Positions 43,457-64,000 of a DNA stretch of 64,000 nt are shown piece by piece. The notes beneath the pieces are model-generated. The model did not search any database. It was not told the origin of the DNA and saw nothing but the letters and a program-made list of their open reading frames with translations. Every line of letters starts with the position of its first letter. The stretch's first letter is position 1. Source of the DNA: Hysterangium stoloniferum (taxonomy: Eukaryota; Basidiomycota; Agaricomycetes; Hysterangiales; Hysterangiaceae); assembly GCA_015178975.1 (NCBI GenBank), contig WHVD01000081.1, forward strand, positions 124,001 to 188,000, written 5' to 3'. A program made the position numbers and the translations under genes.

Positions 43457-43479
43457 TCATATAAAGTAAAGTTGTACGG

Positions 43480-43580
43480 TGGGTGGTGGGCGTTTTTAGG
43501 TGCCGCAGGCCCTATTTGCGAGGGTGCGGAGCGCCCGAGTTTTTCCCCAATTTGTGAGGGCGCGGAGCGCCCGAACGCTC
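43480..43580. other. U1 5' subterminal hairpins
   Basis: GGGTGCGGAGCGCCC and GGGCGCGGAGCGCCC form short GC stems. Equivalents occur in U2 (about 45195-45260), U3 (GGCGCCGAAGGCGCC and GGGCGCGGAGCGCCC, about 54085-54130) and U4 (GGGTGCAGAGCGCCC, about 57645). Position and conservation suggest element-borne structures. Confidence 0.6.
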
Positions 43581-43639
43581 AGGGGTGGGAGTGTGTGACT
43601 AAGCTAATCCTTATTACCTCAGCACGGGTGCAAATCCAG

Positions 43640-44210
43640 AGGCTTTTTCGCCTTCGCGGGAGCATTTGTGCCGCCGCGGGAGTATTGTGTGACAGGCGCG
43701 AAGGTAATTTGTGACACACGGAAGTATTTGTGCACACGCGGGAGTATTCTATCACGTGCCCGGAGGTATTTTCCAATGCCGCGGGAGTATTGTTACACGC
43801 GCGGGAGTATTTCGTCACGCTGTGGGAGTATTTCTCACAGGTGTGGCACCGTTTCACACGGCCTAATGGAGATATTTCCCATGACGGTCCAAGTAGAATT
43901 TCCCACGCCCTTCATGTCATGTCCGGCACAAGCATTTCCCGCGCCCTTCATTTCATTTCCAGCACTGTTTATGTAAGCGTTTCCCATGCTGTGTATGGGA
44001 TCATTTCCCGCGCCTTTCACATAAGCAGTTCCTGCGCCCCAGGGACACATTTCCCACGACCTTTCCGGGAGAATTTCCCACGCCCTTCATGGACCAAAGT
44101 TCACCTTTTGCGGAAGTATTTCCCGCGCCCTCTGGGACATTTCTCCCCACATTTCACGGAAGTATTTCCCACGCCCCTGTTAAGCCATTTCCCCGGTGAA
44201 CGATGTTAAA
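43640..44210. repeat. GC-rich degenerate tandem repeats in U1
   Basis: Roughly 25-30 bp repeats with the core CGGGAGTATT, passing into TTTCCCRCGCCCTTCATG-type repeats. Frames through them (43668-43976, 43730-44209) are repeat artefacts. Confidence 0.7.
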
Positions 44211-44234
44211 TCCCTGGGAGGTCTACATGGTTTT

Positions 44235-44740
44235 CCGGTTTAATTAAAATAAAATACAATAAAGAAAAATAACATAGGATAAATCAAGATAAAATACAAA
44301 TAAAATAGGATAAATCGAAATAAATACAAAAAATGAAAGTAAAATGCTTAAAAATTGAATAAAATAGAGTACACTAAAGCAAAATGTAATAAATCAAAAT
44401 AGAAAACAATAAATCAGGATAAAACAAAATAAAACAAAATAAAATGTTTAAAAATAGAATAAAACAGAATAAACCAAAGTAAAATGCATTAAATCAGACT
44501 AAAATATAATGAGTCAAAATAAACCAAAGTAAAATGCATTAAATCAGACTAAAATATAATGAGTCAAAATAAAATGGAATAAAACAAAACAAAACAAAAC
44601 AAAACAAAATAAAATAAAATAAAATACAATAAAATACAATAAATAACACTGAATCCAAATGAAGTACAACAAATTAAAGTAAAATAATAAACTAAAATAA
44701 ATTATATAAATTAAAATAAACTACAATACATGACAGTAAG
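44235..44740. repeat. AAAATA-rich tract in U1
   Basis: About 500 bp of near-simple (A)n-AAATAAAATACAATA sequence, with an exact longer duplication around 44460-44570. A matching tract lies in U3 at 56640-56800. Confidence 0.8.
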
Positions 44741-44819
44741 ATCAACTCAATGGTTGATTGAAACCATTGCTGCTTTTGAAACTATTGCACCTTTTTTAAC
44801 AGTTGCACCTTTTGTAGCT

Positions 44820-45030
44820 GTCATTTCCATTTGTCACCATTGTTTCCTTTGTAACTGTTGTTTCCTGTTGTTTCCTTTGTGACCTTTGTTTCCTTTGTGA
44901 CCTTTGTTTCCTTTGTGACCTTTGTTTCCTTTGTGACCTTTGTTTCCTTTGTGACCGTTCTTTCCTTTGTGACCGTTCTTTCCTTTGTGACCGTTCTTTC
45001 CTTTGTGACCGTTCTTTCCTTTGTGACCGA
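44820..45030. repeat. 18-bp tandem repeats in U1
   Basis: TTTGTGACCTTTGTTTCC and TTTGTGACCGTTCTTTCC units, about nine clean copies. Opposite-strand QRKERS-type frames are artefacts of the period. Confidence 0.85.
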
Positions 45031-45078
45031 GACTTTACATTTGAAAGCAATTTCCTTGACAATGAGTCTCAGAAATAC

Positions 45079-45141
45079 TTACGCTGCGGGGCGGTCACTT
45101 CGTGACCTGCCCCACAACTTCGCTGCAGGCTCCCAGGCTTG
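45079..45141 (+). other. U1 3' terminal hairpin and end
   Basis: GGGGCGGTCAC-TTC-GTGACCTGCCCC stem, then CCCAGGCTTG. The arms are swapped relative to U3 (GGGGCAGGTCGC..GCGACTGCCCC), i.e. the hairpin is inverted in U1. Confidence 0.65.
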
Positions 45142-45479
45142 TCATATAAAGTAAAGTTGTACGGTGGGTGGTGGGCATTTTTAGGCGCCGCAGGCCATAT
45201 TTGCGAGGGCGCGGAGTGCCCGAGTTTTTCCCCAATTTGTGAGGGTGCGGAGTGCCCGAACCCTCTGCGTGGGAGTGTGTGGCTAAGCTAATCCTTATTA
45301 CCTCAGCACGGGAGCAAATCCGGAGGCTTTTTGGCCTTTGCAGGAGCATTTGTGCCACCGCAGGAGTATTTTCGTGCCGTGGGAGCATTGTGTGACATGC
45401 GCGGGAGCTTTTCCGTGACATTGGTGATGTGTGGGAACATTTTCGGCCATAGCCGCGGGATGCCTGGAAGCCTGCTGTA

Positions 45480-46475
45480 AAGCCTTGAGGCTGCCACACC
45501 TTCTCCCTTCCCCTCTCCCTCCCCTGGCTCCTTAGATTGTGAGGGGCTGTTCTTTGGAATATTTCTCAAGGGATTTGGACCCATACCAAGGTGTGTTGAA
45601 GCCTCTATTTAATTGTATTAAATTTCGCTTTTTTAATAGTTAAATATATTATTCTGCAGGTACAGTCTGGCTATCCACTGGCCCTGGCCACCCCGTATTG
45701 AACATTTATCTTCTTTGAAGCATTCCCCAAGTCCTCAGGCAATACAAAAGGTGTGGTGAGGTCCTACCAATTATTAATTAATTTTCGCTTTTTTAAATGA
45801 ATAAATAATTTATTTGCAGTGGAATCACCCTTTCCTGGGTGTTATTCTCATTCATAAACACAGTCTGAAGACTATTCCATAATCTCAGGTATGTTTTGGG
45901 CTTTCTCATGCTGTTTTAATATATTTATGCATTATTTTTCCCAGTTTTGGCCTATTTTAGACCTATTTGTCTCAATTTCTCTTCCCTTGGACTCTCCACT
46001 GCTTTTCTGAGTCCTCTCTGTGAGTATAAGTGGAGTATTGAAGGTGAGTCCTGTCCCTGTAATTAACCTTAGCTTTTTTTGCTCAAATATTATTCACACA
46101 GTGAAATTGACTCTCTATTCTGTGTCTTTTTGCCTTGATTTCTGTTTCTATTCTTGCTGGAAGATATAACATACCTCCAGGTTAGTATTGGTACCTTGCC
46201 TCATTCTGTTAAAAATTATTTATGCATTATTTTTCGCGTTTTTGGGCTATTTTGGACCTATTTGTCTGAATTTCTTTTCCCTGGCATTCTCTACAGCCTT
46301 TGTGACCATTTTCTATAAGTATAAGTGGAGTATTGAAAGTGAGTCCTTTTCCTGTAATTTACTTTGGCTTATTTTAGCCTAATTCACTCCAACTCTCTGC
46401 CCCTCCTCTCTTCCCCCTCTCTTGCAGGGTTTCTGTCTCTGCTGCTGCTACTGCTGCTGTGATTGCTATATCATT
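45480..46475 (+). other. U2 leader with repeated intron-like blocks
   Basis: Two copies (about 45920-46075 and 46205-46350) of a block TTATGCATTATTTTTC...AAGTGGAGTATTGAAGGTGAGTCC, about 285 bp apart. The block resembles exon ends with GTGAGT donors. A strong pyrimidine tract and CTCTTGCAG (46428) precede ORF1, with an equivalent in U4 (TTTGACAG, 59009). A spliced 5' leader is inferred. Confidence 0.5.
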
Positions 46476-48680
46476 ATGGATCGAACACCTGAGTGTGATC
46501 GAGAGGAGGAGCGAAGGCAGCATAGGGCACAATTGCAAATGACATCTCCATCTGATCGTCATTGGCGTTTAGCTGTGAATTCTAATATACCACCCCCTGC
46601 TCAACCATTCCGAGATCTTCATCTTCCTGTTAGTAGAGGTCAATCTGACAATCCATTTTTGGTTGCTCAGCCAGGTGGCTCTGCTGCAAGTGGCTCTGCT
46701 GCAAGTGGCTCTGCTGCAAGTGGCTCTGCTGCAAGTGGCTCTGCTGCAAGTGGCTCTGTTGCAAGTGGCCCTGCTGCAAGTGGCTCTGATATAGTTGGCT
46801 CTGATGCAGTGGCTGCTTTGCAAAGGCAGTATCTGGCTTTGCCACCATTAAAAAAACCTATTAGGCGGGGGCAGGGTCATGGACAAGGAAATGCAGCTGC
46901 ACATATACAGCAGGATCATCAACCAGCAAATATACCTGTTCAGCCACAGGGACCAGGTCGTACACAAGGCAATGTAGCTGTTCAACAGCAGCAACCAATT
47001 GAAGCTGTCCAGCCTGCAATTGGCTCTGCTGCAGTAGCTGCTCTGTATGCTCAGTATAATGCTTTACCACCATTAGACCAACCTGCTCAACTACAGCCAC
47101 CAATTTTTCAATCAGCACCACATCCACAGCATAGTCATCAACCAGGAAATCAACCAGGAAATGTACCTGCACCAGTACAGCAAAGTCATTCATCTGCTCC
47201 ACTACAACATAGTCATGCATCATTTAATGCAGTTCCCCAAGTCCAGGCACAGCTACCCATTTTACAGTTAGCACCACTACAGAATCACCATCCAGCTCCA
47301 CAACAACAACCATCTATTTTGCAGTGGGCACCACCACAGCTTCACCATCCACCTGGAAATCCAGCCCCACAACTGCACTATGGCCATTTACCTATTAATG
47401 CCATTCCACAACTCCAGGCACAGGTACCCATTTTGGAATTAGCACCACCACAGCATCATCATCTACCTGGAAATCCAGCTCCACAACAACAACAAGCTCC
47501 TATTTTGCAGTGGGCACCACCACAGCTTCATCATCCACCTGAAGATCCAGTTCCACAGCAGCAACAGCAACAGCAACTACAGTTAGCCCCACTTCCAGCT
47601 ATTCCCCCACCTCCAGCTATCCCCCCACCTCCAGCCATTTTACAGCCTGCAGCTATGCCTCCACCTCCCATTCCACAATTACCCATTGGACGGCAACCAG
47701 TTGTGGAGGACAGGTTTCAAAGACATGACTTGGGAGGTATGGACATACAGTGTTCAGACTGTGGAGCTTTGCACTGGATGGGTGAGCGTATCTCAAATAG
47801 CTCTAAGACACAGCCAAAATTTGGCAAGTGTTGCAAGCGAGGAAAGGTGGCCCTTCCAATACTTGAGCCAGTCCCTCACACTTTAAGGTCTCTCCTGGAG
47901 GATAATACAGACAATAGCAGAGAATTTCTCAAGAATATTCGTGCCTATAATAATGCATTTGCATTTACATCACTGGGGGTCAATTTGGATGAGTCTGTCT
48001 TGCAAGGTGGTGGTGGCCCATATGTCTTCAAAATTCATGGTGAATTGTATCACCAGCATGGTGCCTTGATTCCTTACACAGAAGGTGTATCACGTAGTTA
48101 TGCTCAGCTTTACATCCATGATCCTGCATTGGTACAGGAGGATGGACTGAGGCAGGCATTGCAGCAGAGGCAGAATCACAGGGCAAATAGAAACCTAAAT
48201 AACCAAACTTTTTCTGACTTGCAGGATATGATAGAGCAATATAATCCCTTTATACAACTCTATCGCCAGGCACATGAGCGATTGAGGACACAGGCAGAGA
48301 CTCCAAGGCTACATGTCAGGCTGAGCTACAAAGCTTTTAATGATCCCAGACGGTACAATCTTCCAACCGGTGATGAACTTGTAGTCATTCTCCCTGGAGA
48401 TGGTGATACAGGTCATGGTGGCCCAAGGGATATTATTGTTCAGAGGAGAGGGGGCCAGTTCCATCATGTCCATGATGCACAAGCCATTTATACACCCCTT
48501 CATTATGTTATGCTCTTTCCCAGGGGTGAGCGTGGTTGGTCATGGGACATTCCCTATGCCAATCAAAATTGGCAGCCCCAGCCTGGACAGCAGGATGAAG
48601 AAGGTGAAGATGAAGATAAAAGTCAGAAGGTGACCCAATGTGAATATTATGCCTATTTCCCAGAGCATACGAAGCCATGA
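46476..48680 (+). CDS. U2 ORF1: N-terminal part of Helitron replicase
   Basis: 734 codons from ATG 46476 (MDRTPECDREEERR). Order: a GSAASGS tract from 15-bp repeats (residues about 65-105), Pro/Gln/His-rich repeats (WAPPQLHHPPGNPAPQ; about 200-410), a zinc-finger-like CSDCGALHW...KFGKCCKRGKV (about 425-460) typical of Helitron N-termini, then the conserved NIRAYNNAFAFTSLGV, GPYVFKIHGELYH and YAQLYIHDP blocks. It ends EYYAY then a frameshift; in U4 the frame continues YRLFLSQ. In intact relatives this is one protein with the Rep and helicase parts downstream. Confidence 0.75.
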   Translation: MDRTPECDREEERRQHRAQLQMTSPSDRHWRLAVNSNIPPPAQPFRDLHLPVSRGQSDNPFLVAQPGGSAASGSAASGSAASGSAASGSAASGSVASGPAASGSDIVGSDAVAALQRQYLALPPLKKPIRRGQGHGQGNAAAHIQQDHQPANIPVQPQGPGRTQGNVAVQQQQPIEAVQPAIGSAAVAALYAQYNALPPLDQPAQLQPPIFQSAPHPQHSHQPGNQPGNVPAPVQQSHSSAPLQHSHASFNAVPQVQAQLPILQLAPLQNHHPAPQQQPSILQWAPPQLHHPPGNPAPQLHYGHLPINAIPQLQAQVPILELAPPQHHHLPGNPAPQQQQAPILQWAPPQLHHPPEDPVPQQQQQQQLQLAPLPAIPPPPAIPPPPAILQPAAMPPPPIPQLPIGRQPVVEDRFQRHDLGGMDIQCSDCGALHWMGERISNSSKTQPKFGKCCKRGKVALPILEPVPHTLRSLLEDNTDNSREFLKNIRAYNNAFAFTSLGVNLDESVLQGGGGPYVFKIHGELYHQHGALIPYTEGVSRSYAQLYIHDPALVQEDGLRQALQQRQNHRANRNLNNQTFSDLQDMIEQYNPFIQLYRQAHERLRTQAETPRLHVRLSYKAFNDPRRYNLPTGDELVVILPGDGDTGHGGPRDIIVQRRGGQFHHVHDAQAIYTPLHYVMLFPRGERGWSWDIPYANQNWQPQPGQQDEEGEDEDKSQKVTQCEYYAYFPEHTKP

Positions 48681-50565
48681 CCCTTTTTTATGCACAAAAG
48701 CTATTCCAACAGTATATTGTCAATGCCTGGGCAGTAACAGAGCAGCACAGATTGAGATTTCTCAGAGATAATCAACCAAGGTTACGTGCAGAACTCTACA
48801 ACCAGGTGGTCGATGCTTTACACGTGAGGATGTCAACACAGATGCCAATAGTATTGGTCAGAGGGTCATACTCCCTTCTACATTTACTGGCAGTTCAAGG
48901 GATATGAGACAAAGTTTGCAAAATTCATTTGCAATTGCACGAAAGTATGGCAATGCCAGCTGCTTCATCACCATGACAGCCAATCCCAAGTGGAAGGAGG
49001 TTACTGATGAATTGCTTCCTGGCCAGACTCCAGCTGATCGTCCTGATTTAGTCTCCAGGGTCTTTGCTGCCAAAAAAGGCTAAGTTGCTCAAGATGATCA
49101 CAGAGGACCACATCTTTGGTAGAACAGTAGCCCATATCCATGTCATTGAATTCCAAAAGCGGGGTCTTCCACACATGCACTGCCTCATATGGTTTGATGA
49201 CCAGAATAAGCCAAGGACACCAGAAGATGTCGACTCCATGGTTTCTGCCTGTTTTCCAGATCCTGAAACACATCCCAGACTGTTTAATTTAGTAGGACAA
49301 CTCATGACCCATGGTCCCTGTGGAACTAATCATCCAAATGCTGCCTGTATGGTAGATAAGGAATGCAGTAAACACTATCCAAAGGATTGGTGTGAAGCTA
49401 CCATTGTCAATGAGGAAGGCTATCCAACATGCCGTCGCCCCAACAATGGAAGGGTTTATCAAACTCCCAAGTTTACATATGACAACAAACATGTTGTCCC
49501 TTACTCCCCCATTTTGATTCTCACCTTTGAATGCCACATCAATGTAGAGTTGACCTTTACCAATAGTTCAATGAAGTACATGCATAAATACTGTTACAAG
49601 GGCCATGATCGTACAACTATGGAATTTGGAAAGACACCAGATGAGATTCAACAGTACCTCAATGCCCATTATGTCAGTGCACATGAATCTGTCTGGCGAT
49701 TAATGCATAATGAACTCCACACCCAGGTTCCTGCAGTAATGGCACTTGGGGTCCATCTTCCTGGGGAAAACACTGTACTTTTTGATGGTGACCAAGGTCC
49801 TGCTGAGGCTTTACAAAGGGAAGAGCGTTCAGGGACAACTCTCATGGCCTATTTTGAAGCTAATGCTAAGGGTCTTATTGGTTATAATGGACAGCATGCC
49901 CAGGACACATTTTATATGGACTTTCCTGAGTATTTCACAATGTCCCCAAGAAGAAATCATGGAAGCCACGTCAAAGTGGTTTTTCCATAGGGCGCATTCA
50001 TTTTGTCAATATTGCCAGTGGGGAAAGGTTCCACCTCCATACTTTGCTCACTGTTGTCAAAGGTGCCACCTGATTTGAACAGCTCAGGACTTTTCAGGGT
50101 GAGACTTATCCCACATTTCAGCAAACCTGTGTTGCACGTGGTTTGCTTGAAGATGACCGCCAGTGGCACCTGTGCCTCACAGAAGCCAGTCGCATAGAGT
50201 CTGGGTTTCAACTTCGCAGGTTGTTTGCCATCATTTTGACCATGTCCTCCCCTGCACAACCCCATGAACTCTGGGATGACTTCAAAGCATTTCTTTGTGA
50301 TGATTTGAAGTTCATACTTCAGCAAAAACATGGCATTGTCAATCCATCACCAGACAGGATTTATGACTTTGGTCTCTATGTGATTGATAAGATCCTCCGC
50401 TATTCTGGAAAGTCCCTCTCACACTATCCAACCATGCCAAACTGCACTGATGGTTGGGATGGGATTGTTGGCAACCGTCTCATTAGGGAGCAGTCAGATT
50501 ATGATGTTGATATTGAGCATGCCAGTGCCCAAGCCAATCTTGAAAAGTGTAATCCTGAACAATGA
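48677..50565 (+). pseudogene. U2 Rep (HUH, Y2) region, broken
   Basis: Continues the replicase in pieces: FQQYIVNAWAVTEQ (48677-48907), DMRQSLQNSFAIARKYGNAS (to 49080), then the catalytic block at 49064-49990: the HUH motif GLPHMHCLIWF (His at residues 37 and 39) and the two-tyrosine motif MKYMHKYCYK (Tyr at 172 and 176; codons about 49577-49591). It continues with CHINVEL, HESVWRLMHNELH and, in another frame from 50143, EDDRQWHLCLTEASRI...HEHASAQANLEK. Frame breaks lie near 48830, 49080, 49990 and 50080. The key catalytic residues are still present. Confidence 0.8.
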
Positions 50566-51927
50566 GCTGCCTTTGAGACTATAATGAAAGCAGTGGATGA
50601 CCAGCAGGGCAAATTGTTTTTTGTGAATGGTCCAGGTGGCACTGGCAAGTCCTTTGTATGGAATACTCTGGCACATGCATCCAGGGCCAAGGGCTACATT
50701 GTACTTTGTGTGGCATCTTCTGGAATTGCATCAATGATTCTCAAGGGTGGTCGCACTTCTCACAGCACATTTTCAATCCCTGTTCCCTGTGAGAAGGATG
50801 CTCTATGTCATATCAAAAAGGGTTCAGAAAAAGCAGAGCTCATGAAGAAGGTCTGACTAATTATCTGGGATGAAGTTCCCATGCAGTCACGTTTCACAAG
50901 TGAGGCAGTTGACAGAACCCTGAGGGATTTATTAGACAAGGAGGAGCTTCCCTTTGGAGGGATTCCTGTGGCTTGGGGAGGTGACTTCCAGCAGACTTTG
51001 CCTGTTGTACCAAAGGGTTCAAAGGAACAGATCATTGGACAATGTATCCAGAAATCAGAACTCTGGAAGCATATCAAGGTACTCTTCTTGAAAAAGAATA
51101 TGCGGGTGGACCAGGATGATCCAGACAGTCAACAGTTTGCTCAGTGGCTATTGGATATAGGCCATGGAAAGGATTTACCTTTGGATCATACAATGGATAT
51201 CCCTCCTCATATGATCTGTGGTCCAGAAATGTATGATCTAATTGCTGAGATATATCCAGACATCCATGTGGATAGAGACCAAAGGGATTGGCAAGATGAA
51301 GACTCCTTAGACCGGGCAATTCTGTGTCCAAGGAATTCAGAAGCAGATGAGATTAATTCAGAACTTCTGAATAAATTCCCTGGAGAGAGTCGTATGTACC
51401 ACAGTGCTGATACTGCAGAGGGAGACAGTGAGACAGAGATGTATCCTGTAGAGTATTTGAATGGCCTGAATTTTGGTGGAATCTCACCGAGTCGACTTGA
51501 GGTGAAGCCAGGAGTACCTTTGATGCTGTTACGGAACATAGATCCACAGAGAGGGCTTTTCAATGGAACACGATTGCGACTGGTGAAAATGGAAAATCAT
51601 TTGCTTCAAGTACAGATTCTAACTGGACCATGTACTGGAAAAATGGCATTTCTTTCACGGATCAAAATAATTACAAATGATGATCAACTGCCATTTAAAC
51701 TGCATCGTATTCAGTTTCCAGTGCAGTTAGCATTTGCAATGACAATTAACAAGTCACAGGGACAGTCTTTGAAAGTGGTAGGAATAGATTTGAGAATGCC
51801 AGTGTTTGGACATGGGCAATTGTATGTTGGACTTTCAAGGGGAAGAAGTTGGAATAGGATAAAAATACTATTAAAAGAGACAAAGAGAACAGCAAATATA
51901 GTATACAAAGATGTATTATTAGATTGA
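50566..51927 (+). pseudogene. U2 PIF1-type helicase domain
   Basis: Walker A GPGGTGKSF (about 50629-50655), Walker B IIWDEVP (about 50861-50880), motif III GGDFQQTLP (about 50977), then CPRNSEADEIN, a C-terminal MTINKSQGQS (about 51740-51768) and YVGLSRGRS (about 51824-51850). Stop codons TGA at 50563-50565 and 50854-50856 separate it from Rep and split motif I from II. The remaining 348-codon stretch 50881-51927 is clean to its own stop, so this is the best preserved part of the element. Confidence 0.85.
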
Positions 51928-52108
51928 AGTTTTAATGTATTTATTGAAATTGTTTTGACTGATTTTTTCTAACAGTGATTGTGATACATATGTAAATACT
52001 TAGAAATGCTCAGAAATACTTAGAAGTGCTGAGAAATACTTAAGAGTCATGGACACGGGGGGGTTTGGGGGGCTTTGCCTCCCAACAAGCCGGAGCCCGC
52101 AGCAAAGT
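51928..52108 (+). other. U2 3' flank and G-rich hairpin
   Basis: CTCAGAAATACTTAG-type repeats, then GGGGGGTTTGGGGGGCTTTGCCTCCC, matched in U3 by a perfect GGGGGGCTTCGCCCCCC hairpin (57484-57500). Shared with the 3' region of U3 and, in part, U1. Confidence 0.65.
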
Positions 52109-53987
52109 TGTTATGTATTTATAGGTTTTTCCCGATTTTTAACCAATCTCCCCCTAACAAATTGTGAAAACGAAATTTAAATGTAATTATATTGTGATGA
52201 CAAAATTGTACAATATTCTCTTGATTTATCTTGAATTTATACAATTTATCTTGTATTTCTATCTTATAAATTGAGCAAGATATTGAATTTCTAATGTTTA
52301 TTCTTTTTTGATTAATATGTCGGCGGCTCAGTGCTTATTCACAATGCGGGAGTAATCATGTGACATTCACATGACATTTCAAACTCCGACGCCGACAAAA
52401 TGCGATGTGAATAATTGCGCATAATCAAGACAATATATATTTTTATATTATTATAATAAAATATTATATTTATAACTAGCTCAAAATAAATATAATAAAT
52501 ATATAATAATACAAAACCGGCCACTGTGTTTATTACACGGCGCGTGGGAAAATTGTCACAAAGGCGCGCAACGGTCACAAAGGCGCGCAACGGTCACAAA
52601 GGCGCGCAACGGTCACAAAGGCGCGCAACGGTCACAAAGGCGCGCAACGGTCACAAAGGCGCGCAACGGTCACAAAGGCGCGCTCCTGTCACAAAGGCGT
52701 GTGACTGTCACAAAGGCGCGCTCCTGTCACAAAGGCGTGTGACTGTCACAAAGGCGCGCTCCTGTCACAAAGGCGCGCTCCTGTCACAAAAGAGCGCGAC
52801 GGTCACACAGGCGCGCAGGTGCGCGACTGTCACAACACATGACAGTCACAAGACACGAAGGGCACGCACAGGTGCGAGAGCATTATGTCATCATATATGC
52901 TACTACAGCAAAAACCGGAAATCTCTGGAATATTCCAGTGGCTTCCAATGGAATAATAGATAATATGTACTGATAATAAATATAATATTGTAGAATATTC
53001 TATAAGATTCCAGAAAGTTCTATTATGCCAAGAATATTCTATAGTGTCTTAGAAGTAGTTAGAACCTTCCACAATGCTCTAGAAAATTCTAGAAAATTCT
53101 AAATGACATCATTCCTTCCAGAATGACATCATTCAAGCTTCTAGAATCTTCTAAATGTCTCAGACTAAAATGTATATAAGGAGCTCTGCTCCAGCCATGA
53201 AATATAACTCATTTTATCAACCCATTTATAACACATCAGTGTGTCACTGCAGCAAGCAGTTTATTGCCACCTCTTAGTTGAGCATCTGGCACCTAGGATT
53301 CCCTGTCACCTCTTGTTGAGTAATTTGACTGATTATTACATTGCAAATAATCCTTGTTACATTTCTTGTTATTTGTAATCTAAAACTTCAGTCACCTCTT
53401 GTTGAGTAATTTGACTGATTATTACATTACAAATAATCCCTGTTCCCTTGCTCATTTATTGTGAATCAGTAAAGCATATTCACATAAATAAATACTGAGA
53501 ATATCCTTGCAAGATCCTAAGACTACATTAAGATCCTGATAAGTTAGTATCACAGTAAACCCTGTAGGTTAGTGTAAATAAAGCATATATTAACCAAATA
53601 GTGTTTTATTCTATATCTAATCTTTTGACCTGTTTATAAATATTTTTACTGTTTGATAAATAGTATAATATATATATAAACTAGCTAGCATTGAAGTTAA
53701 ATCTAGCTTTGGAATCAGTAAATTGTTATTCTTATTTTAGTAGTTGTTATCACAGAAAAAGAACAAGCTTGCACAAGCAGCTCTCAAAACCTTCTTTGCG
53801 AAATAGGGTGCATATATTCAAGTAAACTCTTGACTTCAGGGGTTCTAAGTCTATCAAGGCTGCCACTGATTAATATCAAATATTTAAATTATTTTACCTT
53901 GCAGTGAATTGAGTATTTGCACATTTTGATTGAGCATTGGACTCCTTTTTCAGAAAATAAGTATTAAAATAAGGCTAATACATTACA
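52109..53987. mobile_element. LTR-like insertion in the U2 3' end (possible long solo LTR), 1879 bp
   Basis: TGTTATGTATT..CATTACA, flanked by AAAGT (52104-52108) and GAAGT (53988-53992). U3 shows the uninterrupted site (GCAGTGAAGTTGTGGGG). It contains a TATA-like TGTATATAAGGAGC (53170), a 19-bp tandem array (52553-52815) and a near-exact 48-bp direct repeat (53304 and 53391). No coding was recognised. TG..CA ends and a 5-bp duplication fit a solo LTR. The length is large for one, so the class is tentative. Confidence 0.6.
52553..52860. repeat. 19-bp tandem repeats inside the LTR-like insertion
   Basis: GGTCACAAAGGCGCGCAAC and variants (CTCCTGTCACAAAGGCG, GTGTGACTGTCACAAAGG), about 14 copies. 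The 145-codon frame across it is a repeat artefact. Confidence 0.85.
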
Positions 53988-53992
53988 GAAGT

Positions 53993-54042
53993 TGTGGGGC
54001 AGGTCACGAAGCCCCGCAGTGTAGCAAGGGTTCCCAGGCTTG
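53993..54042 (+). other. U2 3' terminal hairpin and end
   Basis: TGGGGCAGGTCACGAAGCCCCGC (shortened stem), GTAGCAAGGGTTCCCAGGCTTG, then the TC start of U3. Confidence 0.65.
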
Positions 54043-54374
54043 TCAATATATAGTAAAGTTGCTTGGTGGGTGGTGGGCGTTTTTAGGCGCCGAAGGCGCC
54101 CTAATTCGTGAGGGCGCGGAGCGCCCGAACCTGGAGGTGTGGGAGAGTCTGACTAATATTGACACCCAAAGGTCCTTATTACTCAGTGCGGGAGCAAATG
54201 TGGAGGCTTTTTGCCATTCGCGGGAGCATTTCTGCATTCGCAGGACTATTTTTAGTGCCACAGGAGTATTTGTGACTAACGTGGAAGTATTTATACAAGT
54301 GCGGAGGTATTTTTACATGCGCGGGAGTATTATATCAGGTGCGCGGAGGTATTTTGCAATGCTGTGGGAGTATT

Positions 54375-54650
54375 GTTATACTGCATCCACCGTGCACCCA
54401 TCCACCCGCACCCATCCACGGCACACCTGCTCCCATCCACGGTGCACCCATCCGCCCGCACCCATCCAAGGCGCACCTGCTTCCATCCACCGTGCACCCA
54501 TCCACCCGCACCCATCCACAGCGCACCCATCCACCCGCACCCATCCACAGCGCACCCATCCACCCGCACCCATCCACCCGCACCCATCCATGGCATACCC
54601 ATCCACCCACACCCATCCACTGCGCACCCACTCCCATTCACGGCGCAACC
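54375..54650. repeat. CCCATCCACCCGCA tandem array
   Basis: About nine copies of a roughly 29-bp unit. Open frames in several phases (His/Pro/Thr-rich) are artefacts. Confidence 0.8.
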
Positions 54651-54739
54651 TCTCCGTTTGCCAACGTGCGCACGCGCCGCACCTGTTCGCAACGCGCTGT
54701 GCCCATTTGTGCCCAATTGGGCGTGCACCCTGCTCTGAT

Positions 54740-56640
54740 CGGCCCTCCAGTTGGTGCGTGTCCGCTTTCCTTCTCTCTTCATCCTCCTCTGATCGTCCTC
54801 ATCTCTTTCCCCCAGGATATGTGTCCCCTTTTCTTCTCTCTTCGTCTGTCTGTCTTTCCTCCAGTTGGTGTGTGTCCCCTTTTCTTCTCTCTTCGTCCTC
54901 CTCTGATCGCCTCCTCTCTCTTTCCTCCAGGATGTGTGTGTACCCTTACCTTCTCTCTTCATCCTCCTCTGACTGTCCTCCTCCCACTTTTCTCCAGGAG
55001 GTGCGGGCACCCTTTCTTTCTCTCTTTGTCCTCAACTCATGGGCCTCCTCTCTTTCCTCCAGGAAGTGCATGTACCCTTTCCTTCTCTCTTCGTCCTCCT
55101 CTGATGGCCTCCTCTCTTTCCTCCAGCAAATGTGTGTCCCCTTTCCTCCTCTCTTTGCCCTCCTCTTATCGTCCTCCTCTCCCTTTCCTCCAGTGAGTGT
55201 GTGTACCCTTCCCCTCTCCCTTTTTTCTCCAGGAGGTGCGTGTACCCTGTCTTTCTCTCTGTCTTCTTCTGATCGTCCTCCTCTCTCTTTCCTCCAGGAG
55301 TTGCATCTAGCCTGTCTTTCTCCCTTTGTCCTCCTCTCTTTCCTTCAGGCGGTGGGTGTACAGTTTCCTTCTCTCTTCATCCTCCTCTGATTGGCCTCCT
55401 CTCTCTTTCCTCCAGCCAGTGTGCATTCCCTTTCCTGCTCTCTCTGTCCTCCTCTAATCAGCCTCCTCACTCTTTCCTCCAGGAGGTGCGTGTCCCCTTT
55501 CCTTCTCTCTTCAGCCTCTTCTCATTGTCTTCCTCTCTTTCCTCCAGGGATGTGTGTCCCCTTTCCTTCTCTCCTTGCCCCCCTCTGTCTTTCCCCCAGA
55601 TGGTATGTGTCTCCTTTCCTTCTCTCTCCATCCTTCTCTGATTGGCCTCCTCTCTTTCCCCCAGCCAGTGCGTGTTTCCTTTCCCTCTCTCTCTGTTCTC
55701 TTCTGATTGGCCCCCTCTCTTTCTTCAAGCCGGTGCGTGTTCCCTTTCCCACTATATCCTCCTCTGATCGGCCTCCTCTTTCCTCCAGCCAGTGCGTGTT
55801 CCTTTTCCCCCTCTCTCTGTCCTCCTCTGATTGGCCCCCCTCTCTTTCCTCTAGCCGGTGTGTGTTCCCTTTCCTTCTCTCTCTGTCCTCCTCTGACTGG
55901 CCTCCTCTCTCTCTTTCCTCCAGTGTGTGCATGTACTGTTTCCCTCTTCCTCTCGCCTCTGACTGGCCCTCTCTCTCTTTCCTCCAGCCAGTGTATGTAC
56001 AGTTTCCTTCTCTTTCCATCTTCCTCTGACTGGCCTCCTCTCTCTTTCCTCCAGCCGGTGTGTCTACCATATCCTTCTTCCTCCGTCCTCCTCTGATCAC
56101 TGATTGGCCCCCCCTCTCTCTCTCCTTCAGCCAGTCTGTGTTCTGTTTCCTTCTTCCTCTGTCCTCCTCTGATCAGCCTCCTCTTTCTTTCCTCCAACGA
56201 GTATGTGTATCATTTCCTTCACCTTTGTCCTCCTCTGTGATTGTCCTCCTCTCTTTCCTTCAGCCAGTGTGTGTACCATTTCCTTCACTCTCCATCCTGC
56301 TCTGAATGGGCCCCTCTCTCTTTCCTCCAGATGGTGCGTGTACCATTTCTTTCTCTCTCCATCCTGCTCTGATTGGCCTCTCTTTCCTCCAGGTGGTGCA
56401 TGTACCATTTCCTTCTTCCTCCATCCTGCTCTGATCAGCCCCATCTCTCTTTCTTCCAGGGTGCCTGTGCTGTTTCCTTCTCTCTTCATTCTCTGATTGA
56501 CCTCCTCTCTCTTTCCTCCAATGAGTGTGTGTACTGTTTCCTTCTCTCTTCCTCCCCATCTGATTGGTCTCCAGTCTGTCCTCCCAGAGGTGTGTGTCCC
56601 CTTTCCTTGTCTTTTTGTCCTCTGATCACAGCAATCCTAA
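54740..56640. repeat. Long pyrimidine-rich minisatellite
   Basis: About 25-30 diverged copies of a 65-75 bp unit with the core TTTCCTCCAG..GTGTGT, CCTTTCCTTCTCTCT, GTCCTCCTCTGATTGGCC. Both strands are open over long distances (plus 53930-55390 and 55391-56029; minus 55511-56197, EERERGGQSEEDRERRKG-like) because many units are multiples of three. No start or family signal. Confidence 0.85.
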
Positions 56641-56810
56641 AATAAAAATAATATACATCAAATAAAAATACAATGGAATAAATTAAAATAAAATGCAGTA
56701 AATTAAAGTGAAATTCAATAAATTAGAATAAATTAAATTAACCTAAAATAAAATACATGAATCACAATGAAATAAGTAAATCAAAATAAATAAATCAGCT
56801 GACCACATTA
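56640..56810. repeat. AAATAAAATACA tract in U3
   Basis: Counterpart of 44235-44740, shorter. Confidence 0.7.
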
Positions 56811-56839
56811 ATTAGTTGACTGTCAATTCAACCATTGGA

Positions 56840-57440
56840 ACCATTCTTCCTTTGGTAACCATTGTTCCATTTGTGACCATTCTTCCTTTGGTAACCATTT
56901 TGCCTTTTGTAATGATTCATCCTTTTATACATTGTTCCCTTTGTAACTGTTCGTTTTTTTATAAGTGTTGTTTACTTTGTAACCATTGATTCCTTTGTAA
57001 CATTGATCCATTTGTAACCATTGATCCATTTGTAACCATTGATCCATTTGTAACCATTGACCCATTTGACAGTTTCCATTCTTTACACAGTTTCCTTTCT
57101 TTACACAGTTTCCTTTCTTTACACAGTTTCCACAATTTTGTTCTCTAAACACTTTCTTTTCTTTATATGGTTTCCACGTTTTCTGTCCTCTGAACACTTT
57201 CTGTTGTCTGAACACCTTCTGTTGTCTGAACACCTTCTGTTCCCCAAACACTTTCCATTCTCTGAACACTTTCTGTTCTACAAACACTTTCTGTTTTACA
57301 CACACTTTCCGTTCTACAAACACTTTCCATTCTACAAACACTTTCCGTTCCACAAACACTTTCCATTCCACAAACACCTTCCATTCCCCAAACACCTTCC
57401 ATTCCCCAAACACTTTCCGTTCTCTGAACACTTTCCCAAT
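56840..57440. repeat. 18-bp tandem repeats in U3
   Basis: Three successive sub-families with an 18-bp period: TTTGTAACCATTGATCCA, TTTACACAGTTTCCTTTC and CACAAACACTTTCCATTC. Counterpart of 44820-45030. The 332-codon minus frame (57923-56925) is an artefact of the period. Confidence 0.85.
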
Positions 57441-57463
57441 GAGTCTCAGAAATACATAAAAGT

Positions 57464-57580
57464 TGTGGACGCGGGGGGGTTTGGGGGGCTTCGCCCCCCA
57501 ACAAGCTGGAGCCCGCAGTGAAGTTGTGGGGCAGGTCGCGAAGCGACTGCCCCGCAGCGTAGCAAGGGTTCCTAAGCTTG
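57464..57580 (+). other. U3 3' hairpins and end (best-formed copy)
   Basis: GGGGGGCTTCGCCCCCC perfect hairpin, then the GGGGCAGGTCGC-GAA-GCGACTGCCCC stem (one bulged G), then GTAGCAAGGGTTCCTAAGCTTG. Immediately followed by TCAAATAAG of U4. Confidence 0.75.
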
Positions 57581-57859
57581 TCAAATAAGTGAAAGGAGCA
57601 TGGTGAGTCCGTGGGCATTCTTGGGTGCCACAGGCCGCATGCGTGAGGGTGCAGAGCGCCCAAACCCTCTTATTAGTCAGCACGGGAGCATTTTTGGACT
57701 TGCGGGAGTATTTCATGCTGCCGCGGGAGCTTTTGTGCAGTCGCAGGAGTATTTCTTTAGCACCGTGGGAGTTTTTTGTCACAAACATGGAAGTACTTTT
57801 GTGACTGTAATGGCATGGGAGTTCTTCAATGCCATGGGAGCATTCCCTTTGCCGGCACG

Positions 57860-59110
57860 AGAACACAGGAAGCCCATGGTCAAGCCTCAAGGCTGCCACT
57901 CTTATCTCCCTTCCCCCTCTCACCCAGCCGTCTTCTCCTCAAAGTTGCCACCTGCAATTATTTCTCAAGATATTAAGCCTTTGTCAAGGTGTGTTAAGAC
58001 TCTATTCAATCCCATTTAATGTTGCTTCTTCTAATTAATATTTATTTATTATCATGTTATCCTGCAGACAGAATCTGCCTCCCTTCTGGCCCTCTCCTCC
58101 CCATATTATAGGGGGACCTTCTCTGAGGTATTTCTGGACTTTTGAGGCCATATCAAAGGTGTGGTGAGCTTCTACCTATTTTTGCTGTTTTTACTGAGAA
58201 AACTACTGATTAAATAATGTATTTGTAGTCAAATTGCCCTTTCCCAGCAGTTCTTCTCATTCATAATTTTCCCATACACAGTCTGAAGGCTACTCTATAA
58301 TTTCAGGTGTGTTTTGTGCTTTCTTATGTTGTTTTAAATTATTTATGCTTTATTCTTTGCATTTCTGGGCTATTTTAGACCCAATTGTCTGAACTATTTT
58401 TCTCTCACACTCTCTACTGCTGTTGTGAGTGCTCCCTGTGAGTATAGGTGGAGTGTTGAAGGTAAATCATGTCCCTGGGATTAATCTCACCTTTTTTTTG
58501 CTTAAAGATAATTTATATAGTTGGCATTGATTTCCATTCTCTGGCTTTGTGGCTTTGGTATTGTTTATTCCTTCTGGGAGATGTAGGACATCTCCAGGTT
58601 AGTATTGATACTCTCTCCTATGTTGTTAAAAATATTTATGCATTATTGTTTGCATTTCTGGATGATTTTAGATCCATTTGTCTAATTTGGTTTGCCCTGA
58701 CACTCTCCACTGTTTTTGTGAGTAGAGTGGAGTATTGAAGGTAGGTCCTATCCCTGTGTTTAATTTCACCTTTTCTTGCTTAATGATTATTCATATAGTG
58801 GACTTTGACTCTTATTGTGTGGCTTCTTTGCTTTGTTGCTGTTTCTATTTCTATTCCCCCTGGATATTAGAAATTCCTCAAGGTTAGTATTGATACCTTC
58901 CCTCATTCTGTGAAAAATTATTTATGCTTTATTTTTCACATTGTTGACTTATTTTAGCTTAATTCATTTCAACTCACTCACTCACTCCTCTCCCCCTTTC
59001 TTTGACAGGTTTTCTGTGTCTGCTACTGCTGTTTGGTTATAGATAAGCCATATAGCTCCCTTGGTGATACTGCATTGGCTTTTGTCTCTTGAGTGGATCT
59101 CTCCATTATT
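57860..59110 (+). other. U4 leader with repeated blocks
   Basis: Three blocks of the TTATGC(T/A)TTATT..GGAGTRTTGAAGGT type (about 58340-58465, 58635-58745, 58920) and a pyrimidine tract before CTTTGACAG (59009). No coding. Counterpart of the U2 leader. Confidence 0.5.
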
Positions 59111-59611
59111 ATGAATCGAACACCTGAGCATGATCAGGAGGAGGAGCGAATGCAGCATAGGGCACAGTTGCAAATGGCATCTCCATCTAATCATCATCGG
59201 CGTTTAGTTGTGAATTCTAATATACCACTCCCTCCTCGACCATTTGGAGATCTCCCTGTTGGTAGAGGTCAACCTGATAATCCATTTTTGGTTGCTCAGC
59301 CAGGTGGCTCTGCTGCAGGTGGCTCTGCTGCAAGTGGCTCTACTGCACGTCATTCCACTGCAAGTGGCTCTACTGCACGTCATTCCACTGCAAGTGGCTC
59401 TACTGCAAGTCGTTCCACTGCAAGTCGTTCCACTGCAAGTCGTTCCACTGCAAGTGGCTCTACTGCAAGTCGTTCCACTGCAGATGGCTCTGCTGCAAGT
59501 GGCTCTACTGTAGGTGGCTCTGATATAGTTGGGTCTGATGCAATGGCTCTCTTGCATAGGCAGTATGAAGATTTGCCACCATTACGACCTCTTAGGCGGG
59601 GTCGTGGATGA
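59111..59611 (+). pseudogene. U4 ORF1, N-terminal piece
   Basis: MNRTPEHDQEEERMQ start as in U2, then 15-bp repeats now mixing GSTARHSTASGS and SRSTAS units, ending RRGRG and a TGA at 59609. The Pro/Gln/His-rich part (PQLHHGHPPVNAMPQLQAQV) follows in another frame at 59648-59890 with a stop at 59888. Confidence 0.7.
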
Positions 59612-59936
59612 GGAAATCCAGCACCAATCCAGCATGGTCATCCACCTGTGAATGCCGTGCCACACCTCCAGGCACAGGTACCCATTTTTCAGTTAGCCCC
59701 ACCACAGCATCACCATCGATCTGGAAATCCAGCTGTACAACTACCACCACAACCAATTTTGCAGTGGGCACCACCACAGCTGCACCATGGTCATCCACCT
59801 GTGAATGCCATGCCACAACTCCAAGCACAGGTACCCATTTTGCAGTTAGCCCCACCACAGCATCACCATCCACCTGGAAATCCAGCTTAACAACAACAGG
59901 TACCCATGTTGCAGTTAGCACCACTACAGCATCACC

Positions 59937-61133
59937 ATGCTCCTGTTTATCCAGCAGCAAATGCACAGCAACAGCTACAGTTGGCCCTACCCCCAGCTAT
60001 TCCTCCATCTCCAGTTATTGTCCCACTTGCCCCACCCCCAGCTATTGCCCCACCTGCAGCCAATGCGCCACCCCTCCGCCATTCCACATCCTGCAGCCAT
60101 CCCTCTACTTCCACTTCCTGTTGCACAATTACCCATTGGACGGCAGCCTGTTGTGGAGGCCAGGTTTCCAAGACATGATGTGGGACATATGAAAGTCCCT
60201 CATACCTTAAAGTCTCTTCTCGAGGATAATACAGACAATGCCAAGGAATTTCGCAAAAATATTTGTGCATATAATAATGCATTTGCATTTATATCACTTG
60301 GTGTCAAATTGGATGAGTCTGTCTTACAAGGTGGTCAGGGCCCATATGTCTTTAAAATACATGGTGGATTGTATCATGAGCATGGTTCCTTAATCCCATA
60401 CAGAGAAGATGTATCACCCAGTTATGCTCAGCTTTACATTCATGATCCTGCACTGGCACATGATCCTGCACTGGGGAATGTATTGCAGATAAGGCAGAAT
60501 CACAGGGCAAATCAAAACCTAAACAATCAAACCTTTTCTGACTTGCAGGATATGATGGAGCAATATAATCCCTTTATAGCACTCTATCGCCAGGCACATA
60601 AGCGATTGAGGACACAGGCAGAGACTCCAAGGTTACATGTTAGACTGAGCTACAAGGCTTTTACTGATCCCCGACGGTACAACCTTCCAACTGGTGACGA
60701 ACTTGCAGTCATTGTGCCTGGCGATGGTGATACAGGTCAGGGTGACCCAAGGGATATTATTGTTCAGAGAAGGGGGGGGCTCTTCCATCAATTGCATAAA
60801 GGACAAGCCATTTGTACACCCCTTCATTATGTCATGCTCTTTCCCAGGGGTGAGCGTGGTTGGTCATGGGACATTCCCTATGCAAATAACAATTGGCAGC
60901 CCCAGGCTGCACAACAGCATGAACAAGCTGAAGAAGAAGACAAAAGGCGTAGGGTGACCCAGCGTGAATATTATGCCTATCGCCTATTTCTTAGCCAAAA
61001 CCATTTTTTATGCACAAAAGCTGTTCCAGCAGTACATTGTCGATGCCTGGGCAGTCACAGAACAGAGCGGATTGAAGTTTCTGAGTCAAAATCAACCAAG
61101 GATACGTGCAGAACTCTACAACCAGGTCGTTGA
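59937..61133 (+). pseudogene. U4 replicase N-terminal domain without the Cys motif
   Basis: Reads ARFPRHDVGHMKVPHTLKSLL: compared with U2 about 36 residues containing CSDCGALHW..CCKRGK are missing cleanly and in frame (at about 60190). It continues AYNNAFAFISLGVKLDES, GPYVFKIHGGLYHEHG, YAQLYIHDP (an AHDP duplication near 60455), EYYAYRLFLSQ and then leaves the frame near 61000. The conserved FQQYIVDAWAVTEQ part is in the frame at 60964-61296. Confidence 0.7.
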
Positions 61134-62014
61134 TGCTTTTTCAAATGATGATATCAATCCCAATAGTATTGGTCAGAGGGTCATACTCCCTTCTTTATTT
61201 ACTGGTGGTTCAAGGGATATGAGGCAAAGTCTGCAAAATTCTTTTGCAATCGCATGCAAGTATGGCAATGCCAGCTGCTTCATCACCAACTGCTAATCCC
61301 AATTGGGAGGAGGTCACCCGTGAATTGCTTCTAGGCCAGACCCCTGCTGATCGCCCTGATTTGGTCTCATGTGTCTTTGCTATGAAAAAGGCTAAGATGC
61401 TGAAAATGATTACAGAGGGCCATATCTTTGGTAAAACAGTAGCACATATCCATGTCATTGAATTCCAAAAGCAGGGTCTTCCACACATGGACTGTCTTAT
61501 ATGGTTTGAGGAGCAGGATAAGCCAAGGACACCTGCAGATGTCGATTCAATTATTTCTGCCTGTTTTCCAGATCCTGAATCACATCCCAGACTATTTAAT
61601 TTAGTAGGTCAACTCATGACCCATGGCCCCTGTGGTCTTCATCATCCAAATGCTGCCTGTATGGCCAATGGTACATGTGGTAAATTCTTCCCAAAGGATT
61701 GGTGTGAAGCCACCATTGTCAATCAGGAAGGCTATCCATTCTACCTTCGTCCCAACAATGGGAGGGTTTATGTAACTCCCAAGTTTACATATGACAACAG
61801 ATATGTTGTTCCTTACTCTCCTATTCTGCTTCTCACCTTTGAGTGCCATATCAATGTTGAGTTGGTCTTTACCAATAGATCAATGAAGTATATGCATAAA
61901 TACTGTTACAAAGGCCCCGATCGCACAACTATGGAGGTTGGAAAGACACCAGATGAGATTAAAAGTATCTTGATGCATGATATGTTAGTGCACATGAGTC
62001 TGTCTGGCGATTAA
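60964..62014 (+). pseudogene. U4 Rep region with an altered HUH motif
   Basis: 60964-61296 carries FQQYIVDAWAVTEQSGLKFL, RDMRQSLQNSFAIACKYGNAS. 61244-62014 carries EFQKQGLPHMDCLIWF, where the second His of HUH is Asp (codon GAC at about 61492; U2 has CAC), then the intact two-tyrosine motif MKYMHKYCYK (about 61887-61916). The loss of one metal-binding His should abolish nickase activity. Frame breaks near 61280 and 61965. Confidence 0.75.
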
Positions 62015-63165
62015 TGCACAATGAACTTCACACTCAGGTTCCTGCAGTAATGGCACTTCGTGTCCACCTCCCTGGGGAAACCACTGTCATTTTTGATGCT
62101 GATCAGGGTCCTGCTGAGGCTTTACAAAGGGCAGAGTGTACTGGCACAACTTTAATGGCTTATTTTGAAGCTAATGCCAAGGATCTCATTGGCTACAATG
62201 GTCACCGTGCCAGGGACACATTGTATATGGATTTTCCCGAGTATTTTACATTTGTAGCTAGGACTAAATCATGGAAGCCACATCAAAGTGGTTTTTCCAT
62301 AGGACACATCCATTTTGTCAATGCTGCCTGTGGTGAAAGATTCCACCTCCGTACATTGCTCACTGTTGTCCAAGGTGCCACCTCATTTGAAAATCTAAGG
62401 ACCTTTCAGGGTGAGACCCATCCCACATTTCAACAAGCCTGTGTTGCATGTGGTTTGCTTGAAGATGATCACCAGTGGAACATATGCCTCAGAGAAGCCA
62501 GTCGCATACAGCCTGGCCTTCAACTTCGCAGGTTGTTCATCATCATTTTGACCATGTCCTCCCCTGCACAACCTCAAGAACTCTGGGATGAGTTCAAAGA
62601 ATTTATCTGTGATGATTTGGACTGGATCCTGAGGGTTACATATAACATTGACAATGCAGCACCTCACACAATTTATGACGTTGGTCTCTATCAGATTGAT
62701 AAAATCATCCACTGTTCTGGAAAGTCTCTTTCACTCTATCCAACCATGCCACAAATCACTGAGAATTGGGATCAGTTCATTGGCAATCGTCTCATTAGGG
62801 AGCAGAAGAATTATAATCTTGATCATGAGCATGCCAGTGCCCAAGCCAATCTTGAAACATTCAATCCTGAACAACAAGTGGCTTTTGACACTATCATCAA
62901 GGCAGTTGATGAGAAGCAGGAGGGCAAAATGTTCTTTGTAAATGGCCCAGGTGGCACTGGCAAGTCCTTTGTATGGAATACTCTTGCACATGCATGTCAT
63001 GCCAAAGGCTACATTGTCCTTTGTGTCGCCTCATCTGGAATTGCATCCATGATTCTGAAAGGTGATTGCACCTCTCATAGCATGTTTGCAATTCCTGTTC
63101 CCTGTGAGAAGAACTCCTCATGTCACATCAAAAAGGGCTCAGAAAAGGCAGAGCTCATGAAGTAA
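62014..63165 (+). CDS. U4 Rep C-terminal part and helicase motif I
   Basis: 383 codons without a break: NELHTQVPAVMALRVHLPGE, SGFSIGHIHFVNAACGERFH, LLEDDHQWNICLREASRI, HEHASAQANLETFNPEQQVA and Walker A GPGGTGKSF (about 62945). It ends at TAA just before the RLIIWDEVP block (63160-63190). Longest clean stretch of U4, and it bridges a region broken in U2. Confidence 0.75.
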   Translation: MHNELHTQVPAVMALRVHLPGETTVIFDADQGPAEALQRAECTGTTLMAYFEANAKDLIGYNGHRARDTLYMDFPEYFTFVARTKSWKPHQSGFSIGHIHFVNAACGERFHLRTLLTVVQGATSFENLRTFQGETHPTFQQACVACGLLEDDHQWNICLREASRIQPGLQLRRLFIIILTMSSPAQPQELWDEFKEFICDDLDWILRVTYNIDNAAPHTIYDVGLYQIDKIIHCSGKSLSLYPTMPQITENWDQFIGNRLIREQKNYNLDHEHASAQANLETFNPEQQVAFDTIIKAVDEKQEGKMFFVNGPGGTGKSFVWNTLAHACHAKGYIVLCVASSGIASMILKGDCTSHSMFAIPVPCEKNSSCHIKKGSEKAELMK

Positions 63166-64000
63166 GTACGCCTCATCATCTGGGATGAAGTTCCAATGCA
63201 GTCGCATTTCATATGTGAGGCAGTCGACAGAACTCTAAGGGATGTATTAGACAAAGATGCTCTCCCCTTTGGAGGCAATCCTGTTGCCTGGGGAGGTGAC
63301 TTCCAGCAGACTTTGCCTGTTGTACAGCATGCCTCTAAAGAACAGATTATTGGTGAATATATTCAAAAATCTCAACTCTGGAACCATGTCAAGGTAATTT
63401 TCTTGAAAAAGAATATGCGGGTTTGATCAGCATGATCCGCACAGTGATCAGTTTGCTCAGTGGCTCTTAGATGTAGGCCATGGAAAGGATTTGCCTTTGG
63501 ATCATACAATGGATATCCCTCCTCATATGATCTATGGTCCAGAAATGTCTGATCTAATTGCTGAGATATATCCAGACATCCATGTGGATGGAGACCAAAG
63601 AGATTGGCAAGATGGAGACTTCTTAGACCATGCTATTCTGTGTCCTAGGAATTCAGATGTGGAAGAAATTAATTCAGAACTTCTGAATAGATTCCCTGGA
63701 GTGAGTCGTGTCTACCACAGTGCTGACACTTCAGAGGGTGACATGGAGGCAGAAGTCTATCCTGTGGAATATTTAAATAGTCTCAACTTTGGTGGAATTT
63801 CACCAAGTCGACTTGAGATGAAGCCAGGAGTACCTTTAATGCTACTACAGAACATAGATCCACAGATGGGACTTTTCAATGGTACAAAATTGCAACTACT
63901 CAAAATGGAAAATCATTTGCTTTTGGTGCGGATCTTAACTGGACCATGTGCTGGGGAAGAGGCATTTATTTCAAGGATTAAAATCATTACAAATGATGAT
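63166..64000 (+). pseudogene. U4 PIF1 helicase continuation (runs off the window)
   Basis: LIIWDEVPMQS (63172), GGDFQQTLPVVQ (about 63293), NMRV to a stop at 63426 after one extra T relative to U2, then in the next frame FAQWLLDVGHGKDLPLDHTM, CPRNSDVEEINSELL, FGGISPSRLEMKPGVPLML to the last base. Motifs V and VI would lie beyond the window. Confidence 0.8.

Follow-up and report, generated by a model that had tools for sequence, protein, structure and literature searches.

Tandem Helitrons are already known, as oddities that were often read as a failure to stop at the 3' end. We analyzed a head-to-tail array of Helitrons in a stretch of 64,000 nucleotides of the basidiomycete Hysterangium stoloniferum (the window; bases 124001-188000 of contig WHVD01000081.1, C535 in our numbering) and searched the same 111-Mb assembly for further junctions of this kind. 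The fungal kinase family PF17667 has 116 matches in this assembly, counted as stretches rather than genes, and exceeds its cut-off in 2 of 14 control genomes as well; with the CTTG end, known from a basidiomycete, this points to a fungal host, probably a basidiomycete. End-to-end stacking of Helitrons was found to be real and genome-wide, and its scale, together with its reading by one rule of insertion, is the new part. A literature search found no published genome in which most Helitron 3' ends meet another Helitron; this search is weak, with subscription papers mostly outside it.

The literature describes several related arrangements. In maize, a single head-to-tail pair has the 3' end of one Helitron directly followed by the TC of a different Helitron at a G/T junction, and two readings of the order were given (Du et al., 2008; PMC2267711). 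The junctions in H. stoloniferum have the same form, but the maize case is one pair with a CTAG end, whereas we found 231 junctions and chains of many units. The tandem Helitrons of Myotis bats and of the silkworm, as cited in PMC4067079, are also head to tail; bypassed termination is invoked there, whereas the neighbours differ here. The same source mentions distantly related Helitrons directly adjoining each other in bat and maize. Helraiser and Helibat share with the present elements an A|T target in AT-rich sequence, and Myotis copies were found to abut the end of another Helitron, but the end is CTAG and no arrays this large are described in the available text (PMC4778049, PMC5876387).

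Among fungi, FoHeli4 lies 2 bp upstream of the 5' end of another element, and three tandem copies are known from Metarhizium acridum (Chellapan et al., 2016; PMC5148889). These are isolated cases, and the elements differ from ours in their target sites and in non-canonical ends that bear inverted repeats. HELPO2 of Pleurotus ostreatus resembles the present elements in its AT target, T[C/G] 5' end, CTTG 3' end, subterminal hairpin, RepHel protein and AT-rich flanks (Castanera et al., 2014; PMC4289320). This likeness rests on the features described, and in that paper the word tandem occurs 0 times, though clusters are mentioned.

The array in the window

From position 43457 of the window four units, U1 to U4, abut head to tail with zero bases between them. 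The features of the array are:

43437..43456, + strand: TCA/TA-rich tract 5' of U1 (taatcatcaatcaatatata), read as target tract; similar tracts are enriched before 12 outer 5' ends
43457..45141, + strand: U1, 1,685 bp, short non-autonomous Helitron; host A, then TCATATAAAG; 3' end ..CCCAGGCTTG
45088..45113, + strand: 3' subterminal hairpin of U1 (GGGGCGGTCAC..GTGACC.GCCCC), 28 nt before the U1 end; DNA fold z = -2.84
45138..45143, + strand: junction U1/U2, reads CTTG/TC, cut 45141|45142
45142..54042, + strand: U2, 8,901 bp, Helitron with RepHel coding region in a broken frame
46383..48680, + strand: N-terminal open frame of U2, 765 amino acids, terminates at a stop; without Pfam match
49052..49990, + strand: Rep part of U2, Helitron_like_N 5.4e-11; GLPHMHCLIW and YMHKYCYKGH read by eye
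50857..51927, + strand: PIF1-type helicase part of U2, PIF1 1.9e-33, Pif1_2B 2.4e-13
54039..54044, + strand: junction U2/U3, reads CTTG/TC, cut 54042|54043
54043..57580, + strand: U3, 3,538 bp, non-autonomous; start TCAATATATAG, end ..CCTAAGCTTG
57523..57558, + strand: 3' subterminal hairpin of U3; DNA fold z = -3.76
57577..57582, + strand: junction U3/U4, reads CTTG/TC, cut 57580|57581
57581..64000 in the window and to 64452 outside it, + strand: U4, 6,872 bp, RepHel-bearing Helitron; start TCAAATAAGTGAAAG
61223..62014, + strand: Rep part of U4, Helitron_like_N 1.4e-19
61981..63165, + strand: first piece of the PIF1 helicase part of U4, PIF1 8.3e-29

An earlier note on this DNA had placed three seamless junctions at these cuts and an A at the outer 5' flank; the three junctions are exact, each reading CTTG|TC, and A precedes U1. 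It had also proposed to follow the array past 64000. When this was done U4 was found to have a CTTG-type 3' end, ..TTCCTAAGCTTG, at 64452, and the TC of a fifth unit, U5, follows directly from 64453. Given this start the array has at least five units. U5 is like U3 for about 1.5 kb, after which the likeness ends, and a search of the 7.9 kb past the U5 start, with up to four substitutions allowed ahead of an exact CTTG, gave no recognisable 3' end.

In all five units an initial TC and a conserved AT-rich stretch precede GTGGGTGGTGGG (U1, U2, U3, and U5) or the variant GTGAGTCCGTGGG (U4). The 3' termini of U1 to U4 are CCAGGCTTG or CTAAGCTTG. Short and coding units alternate in the window, and U1 to U5 differ in both length and body; the direct similarity between U1 and U2 is limited to the first ~230 bp (92%).

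Junctions and neighbours across the genome

The 3' motif GGYTCCYARGCTTG has 380 exact copies in the genome. A Helitron 5' core was found within 10-40 bp after 231 of these (109 with one core form and 122 with the other), while control patterns read backward gave 0 matches in the genome, and the stacking pattern is therefore not due to chance. Exact motifs were demanded in this search, and 231 is likely a lower bound. Places were listed for 200 of the 231 junctions (100 of the 109 and 100 of the 122), all at different 3' ends, and the chain and length tests use these 200. By length, 147 of them are seamless, 41 have at least two extra bases and 12 are short.

The frequency of stacking was similarly seen from single ends. 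The first 30 3' ends by contig order, chosen irrespective of what lies downstream, were followed by a 5' end in 22 cases, by unrelated sequence starting with T in six, and by a common 930-bp sequence in two (L053 and L057; L-numbers of the series L001-L092 are Helitron loci extracted from the genome, C-numbers are contigs). Conversely, of 158 first-family 5' cores the first 100 listed were considered, and an exact 3' motif precedes 45 of them in these lists. Contig C28 carries 13 successive 3' ends on one strand in 44 kb, 11 of them seen as junctions, and the spacing of successive listed junctions ranges from 135 to 14425 bp (n = 75). The 930 bp after the 3' ends of L053 and L057 are the same sequence (98%), possibly resulting from 3' read-through or representing a third kind of unit.

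To compare neighbouring units, 88 of the 92 loci were oriented (L027 and L092 were not, and L031 and L032 come from the contig of the window itself), and these form the basis of the neighbour and nearest-relative tests. For the neighbour test nine loci that duplicate a place already included or are segmental copies were dropped, as were loci without a junction or with a deviating 5' core, which left 52 junction loci. Both sides were common to seven pairs of these, the upstream side only to 193 and the downstream side only to 42, i.e., one side to 235. Downstream of one cluster of 20 upstream ends stood 14 different units, and six different units stood upstream of one cluster of 11 downstream starts. 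Successive units were thus not found to be the same element. Because the neighbours are mostly different elements, the arrays are heterogeneous and are not concatemers. L010-L012, which have both sides in common, look like segmental copies (98-99% over 3 kb).

Element ends and target site

Both U2 and U4 match Helitron_like_N and PIF1 in Pfam, with the U2 frame split into several pieces. We take the GLPHMHCLIW of the U2 Rep part to be the HUH motif and YMHKYCYKGH to be the two-tyrosine motif. With these motifs, read by eye, and the Pfam matches of U2 and U4, the elements have the canonical RepHel composition of an HUH Rep with two tyrosines and a PIF1 helicase, and their identity as Helitrons, like their head-to-tail order, is upheld. 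Genome-wide, 116 helicase matches were scored, with 114 of 658 helicase candidates scored; 11 of the 116 matches have an open frame of at least 1,800 amino acids without an internal stop in the match. The RepHel copies fall into roughly three groups, ~90-97, 83-87, and 60-64% identical to U2, with a few intermediates. One array, on contig C2, has members of all three groups (by position, compared by eye).

The 3' end is CTTG, which misses the textbook motif CTRR but fits the fungal variant described for HELPO2 of Pleurotus. A hairpin near the 3' end is clear in U1 and U3 and weak in U2 (z of -2.84, -3.76, and -0.94, respectively). In U1 and U3 it lies 22-28 nt from the end, farther than the ~12 nt of HELPO2 (PMC4289320). 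In all, 18 3' ends were aligned.

Three 5' ends and one 3' end were compared with empty paralogues, each of the four copies at one of its ends only. L009, L019, and L025 are flanked by one host hairpin-like repeat, an empty copy of which, inside L019, reads ..CTCTATCATA|TATAG (also given as ..GTGCTCTATCATA|TATAG..). L009 and L019 sit at the A|T of that empty copy, and L025 sits five bases earlier, again at A|T. At the 3' end of L061, CTTG|T, the flanking T aligns with a related empty copy, ..CATGTA|TATATT. Since these four insertions were compared with empty paralogues, the element ends in the four cases can be placed, as judged by alignment, at TC and CTTG and the target at A|T, with insertion between A and T and no target duplication. 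This confirms the termini proposed earlier. Four Helitrons (L009, L019, L025, and L061) thus entered copies of the host hairpin-like repeat family independently, at the same A|T or close to it, and the repeat appears to be a natural hot spot.

The flanks of the 5' ends agree with an A|T target in a larger sample. In all of 93 genomic copies the exact first-family start TCAWATAAAGTAAAGTTG is preceded by A or G, and in 0 by C or T. The A is probably host or spacer and the G probably the end of a preceding CTTG. A was found before 12 of 12 outer 5' ends, from loci picked by likeness to U1. The 20 bp before these ends contain 2.08 TCA on average, compared to 0.42 per 20 bp at A|T positions of these flanks (p = 1e-5). 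In U1 to U4, AT makes up 71-82% of the first 17 nt.

Origin and growth of the stacks

Each array probably accumulated from separate insertions by members of several related Helitron families, one after another at the A|T that a resident's 5' end provides. A newcomer would insert at A|T in the ordinary manner of Helitrons, with a preference for the site made up of the A left of a resident and the T of the resident's TC. The resident start (TCAWATAAAGTAAAGTTG, TCAAATAAGTGAAAG, TCATATAAGTTAATTC) is AT-rich, the composition to be expected 3' of the cut in a Helitron target; Helraiser favours AT-rich surroundings at its insertion sites, most strongly where the transposon 3' end comes to lie (PMC4778049). 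The newcomer, ending in CTTG, would then adjoin the old TC directly. As the TC of the newcomer would again stand beside the same A, the target would be recreated at each insertion, and, given the A|T rule, growth of the stack would take place at the 5' edge, or immediately 3' of a TCA tract that has become trapped. Of two seamlessly joined units, the upstream one would thereby be the newer. Insertion a few bases upstream in the TCA tract would leave a TCA-like spacer ending in A, and insertion just inside the resident tip (TCA|TATAAG) would give a CTTG|TATAAG junction. Insertion at a self-recreated A|T target would thus explain seamless, spacer and split-tip junctions by one rule.

Among 100 listed junction strings of one core form, 86 start with TC, eight with TA, three with TT, and three with CC. 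For most of the TA starts, to which L026 adds another, a cut within TCA|TATAAG would account for the sequence, and such junctions would be split tips, formed by newcomers in the 5' tip of a resident. Arrays with TA-start junctions lie on C2, C7, C68, C1 (1330-1342 kb), and C124. The 14 listed spacers before a full TC start (nine and five by core form) all start with T and end with A; the forms are TCA, TCAA, TCCAA, TCATA, TCATCA, TCATATA, and one longer. Of 13 length-defined spacers of one core form nine stand before a full TC start, those on C4 and C356 are TA tracts, and those on C143 and C441 resemble inner insertions; all 13 were counted when spacer position was tested. Spacers were found at 14 of 42 first listed junctions of a chain compared to 7 of 75 later ones (p = 0.002), and for the first family only at 14 of 31 first junctions compared to 3 of 34 later ones (p = 0.0014).

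The seamless G|TC junctions would also follow directly if the 3' end of a resident was the target, with the transposase nicking CTTG|T as its own end and joining the incoming TC, which would result in 3'-ward growth at a non-canonical G|T. This reading and insertion at the resident's 5' end are the two that Du et al. (2008) gave for the single maize pair (PMC2267711). We regard targeting of the 3' end as unlikely: it needs a second target rule besides A|T, it does not by itself explain TA-start junctions and A-ending spacers, and the nearest-relative test described below leans the opposite way. The assembled sequence itself could be at fault, since assemblies fail at repeats and the evidence here is assembled sequence. 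That assembly joins created the junctions is hardly credible, as 231 junctions with the same base-level logic are spread over many contigs, one of more than 4 Mb.

The earlier note had suggested a rolling-circle concatemer or a stable composite. In a concatemer or read-through, one element would be copied repeatedly because its 3' signal is missed. Bypassed termination signals have been held responsible for the tandem arrays of bat and silkworm (PMC4067079). Here, 235 pairs of junction loci have one side in common compared to seven with both, the spacing of junctions is spread from 135 to 14425 bp (n = 75), and U1 and U2 are similar in their first ~230 bp only, all of which makes a concatemer or read-through very improbable. 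Composites, in which the first 5' end acts jointly with a 3' end farther along, so that blocks of at least two units are copied, would fit the seven pairs with both sides in common and the 3' end and 930 bp of downstream sequence common to L053 and L057. They account for a minority only, and L010-L012 look like segmental copies; composites are a slim prospect even for some arrays, and a single stable composite finds no support as the general case. The earlier interpretation thus stands with respect to Helitrons in seamless head-to-tail order, but not with respect to how this order arose.

With insertion at the resident's 5' end as the preferred mechanism, growth at the 5' edge is favoured, not proven. 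The nearest-relative test used 40 junction loci of L033-L092; the closer relative belonged to the upstream unit at 26 and to the downstream unit at 13 of the 40 junctions (39 decided, p = 0.053; Wilcoxon p = 0.027, n = 25). Several observations weigh against this direction. The nearest-relative test sets 3' halves against 5' halves, which may be differently conserved. A test for leftover tips went in the right direction but was not significant, with an upstream spacer in the same chain at four of five split-tip junctions compared to 30 of 70 other junctions (p = 0.13; none on C124), and deletion or a different 5' end could also account for a TA start. The distance to the nearest relative did not differ between outer and inner 5' units (medians of about 0.91 for 11 and 0.92 for 12 units, determined by hand), the lengths of open RepHel frames were unordered along arrays such as those on C234, C153, and C550, and in the window U5, of the first family, lies downstream of U4, of the second.

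The order of families was also considered as evidence of age and was dropped, which likewise counts against growth at the 5' edge. Units of the third family (F3, TTAATTC type) stand last in chains, with 14 steps from F1 to F3, eight from F2 to F3, and 0 in reverse, but this order is confounded, as F3 seems to have another 3' end that the motif does not see. In the 15 kb that follow, 0 of 13 F3 junctions on contigs C1-C68 had an exact 3' motif of the same strand (by eye), and chains therefore cannot continue past F3 units. In several F3 units (by position and by eye) the RepHel shares ~60-64% identity with the U2 copy, and in some of them its open frame is long; for this reason F3 units need not be old.

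A more tentative proposal, which we put forward as possible rather than probable, is that the stacks are self-regenerating and time-ordered. Each 5' end would be the best landing site for the next element, drawn from about three RepHel lineages, and the order of units would be the order of transposition with the newest at the 5' edge, much as an array of clustered regularly interspaced short palindromic repeats (CRISPR) takes up its new spacers at one end. If growth is polar, the stacks would be ordered records of transposition and would offer numerous natural tests of how Helitrons choose their targets. Stacking would also restrict many insertions to places that are already occupied.

Some further observations concern single loci. 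In L009 (oriented 1-1500) the array is separated by about 1 kb of other sequence from the 5' end of an oppositely directed Helitron, so that two stacks appear to diverge from one island. The 5' flank of L017 matches the U2 interior reversed (window 52449-53817), which suggests a nested insertion. L059 (C5:7567, + strand) and L060 (C5:12536, - strand) are near-identical junctions facing each other ~5 kb apart, 99.7% identical over 2.1 kb, and apparently belong to a large inverted duplication.

A plasmid search with the Rep region gave no match, and ten open reading frames from the left part of the window gave one sub-threshold match alone in Pfam. Similar-looking 42-bp tandem repeats were found in this left part at 19967, 25759, 33304, and 40021. 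Within the array, the 18-bp tandem repeat of U1 (44867-45029) and the 19-bp tandem repeat of U2 (52555-52817) match in opposite orientation, with 79% identity over 124 bp.

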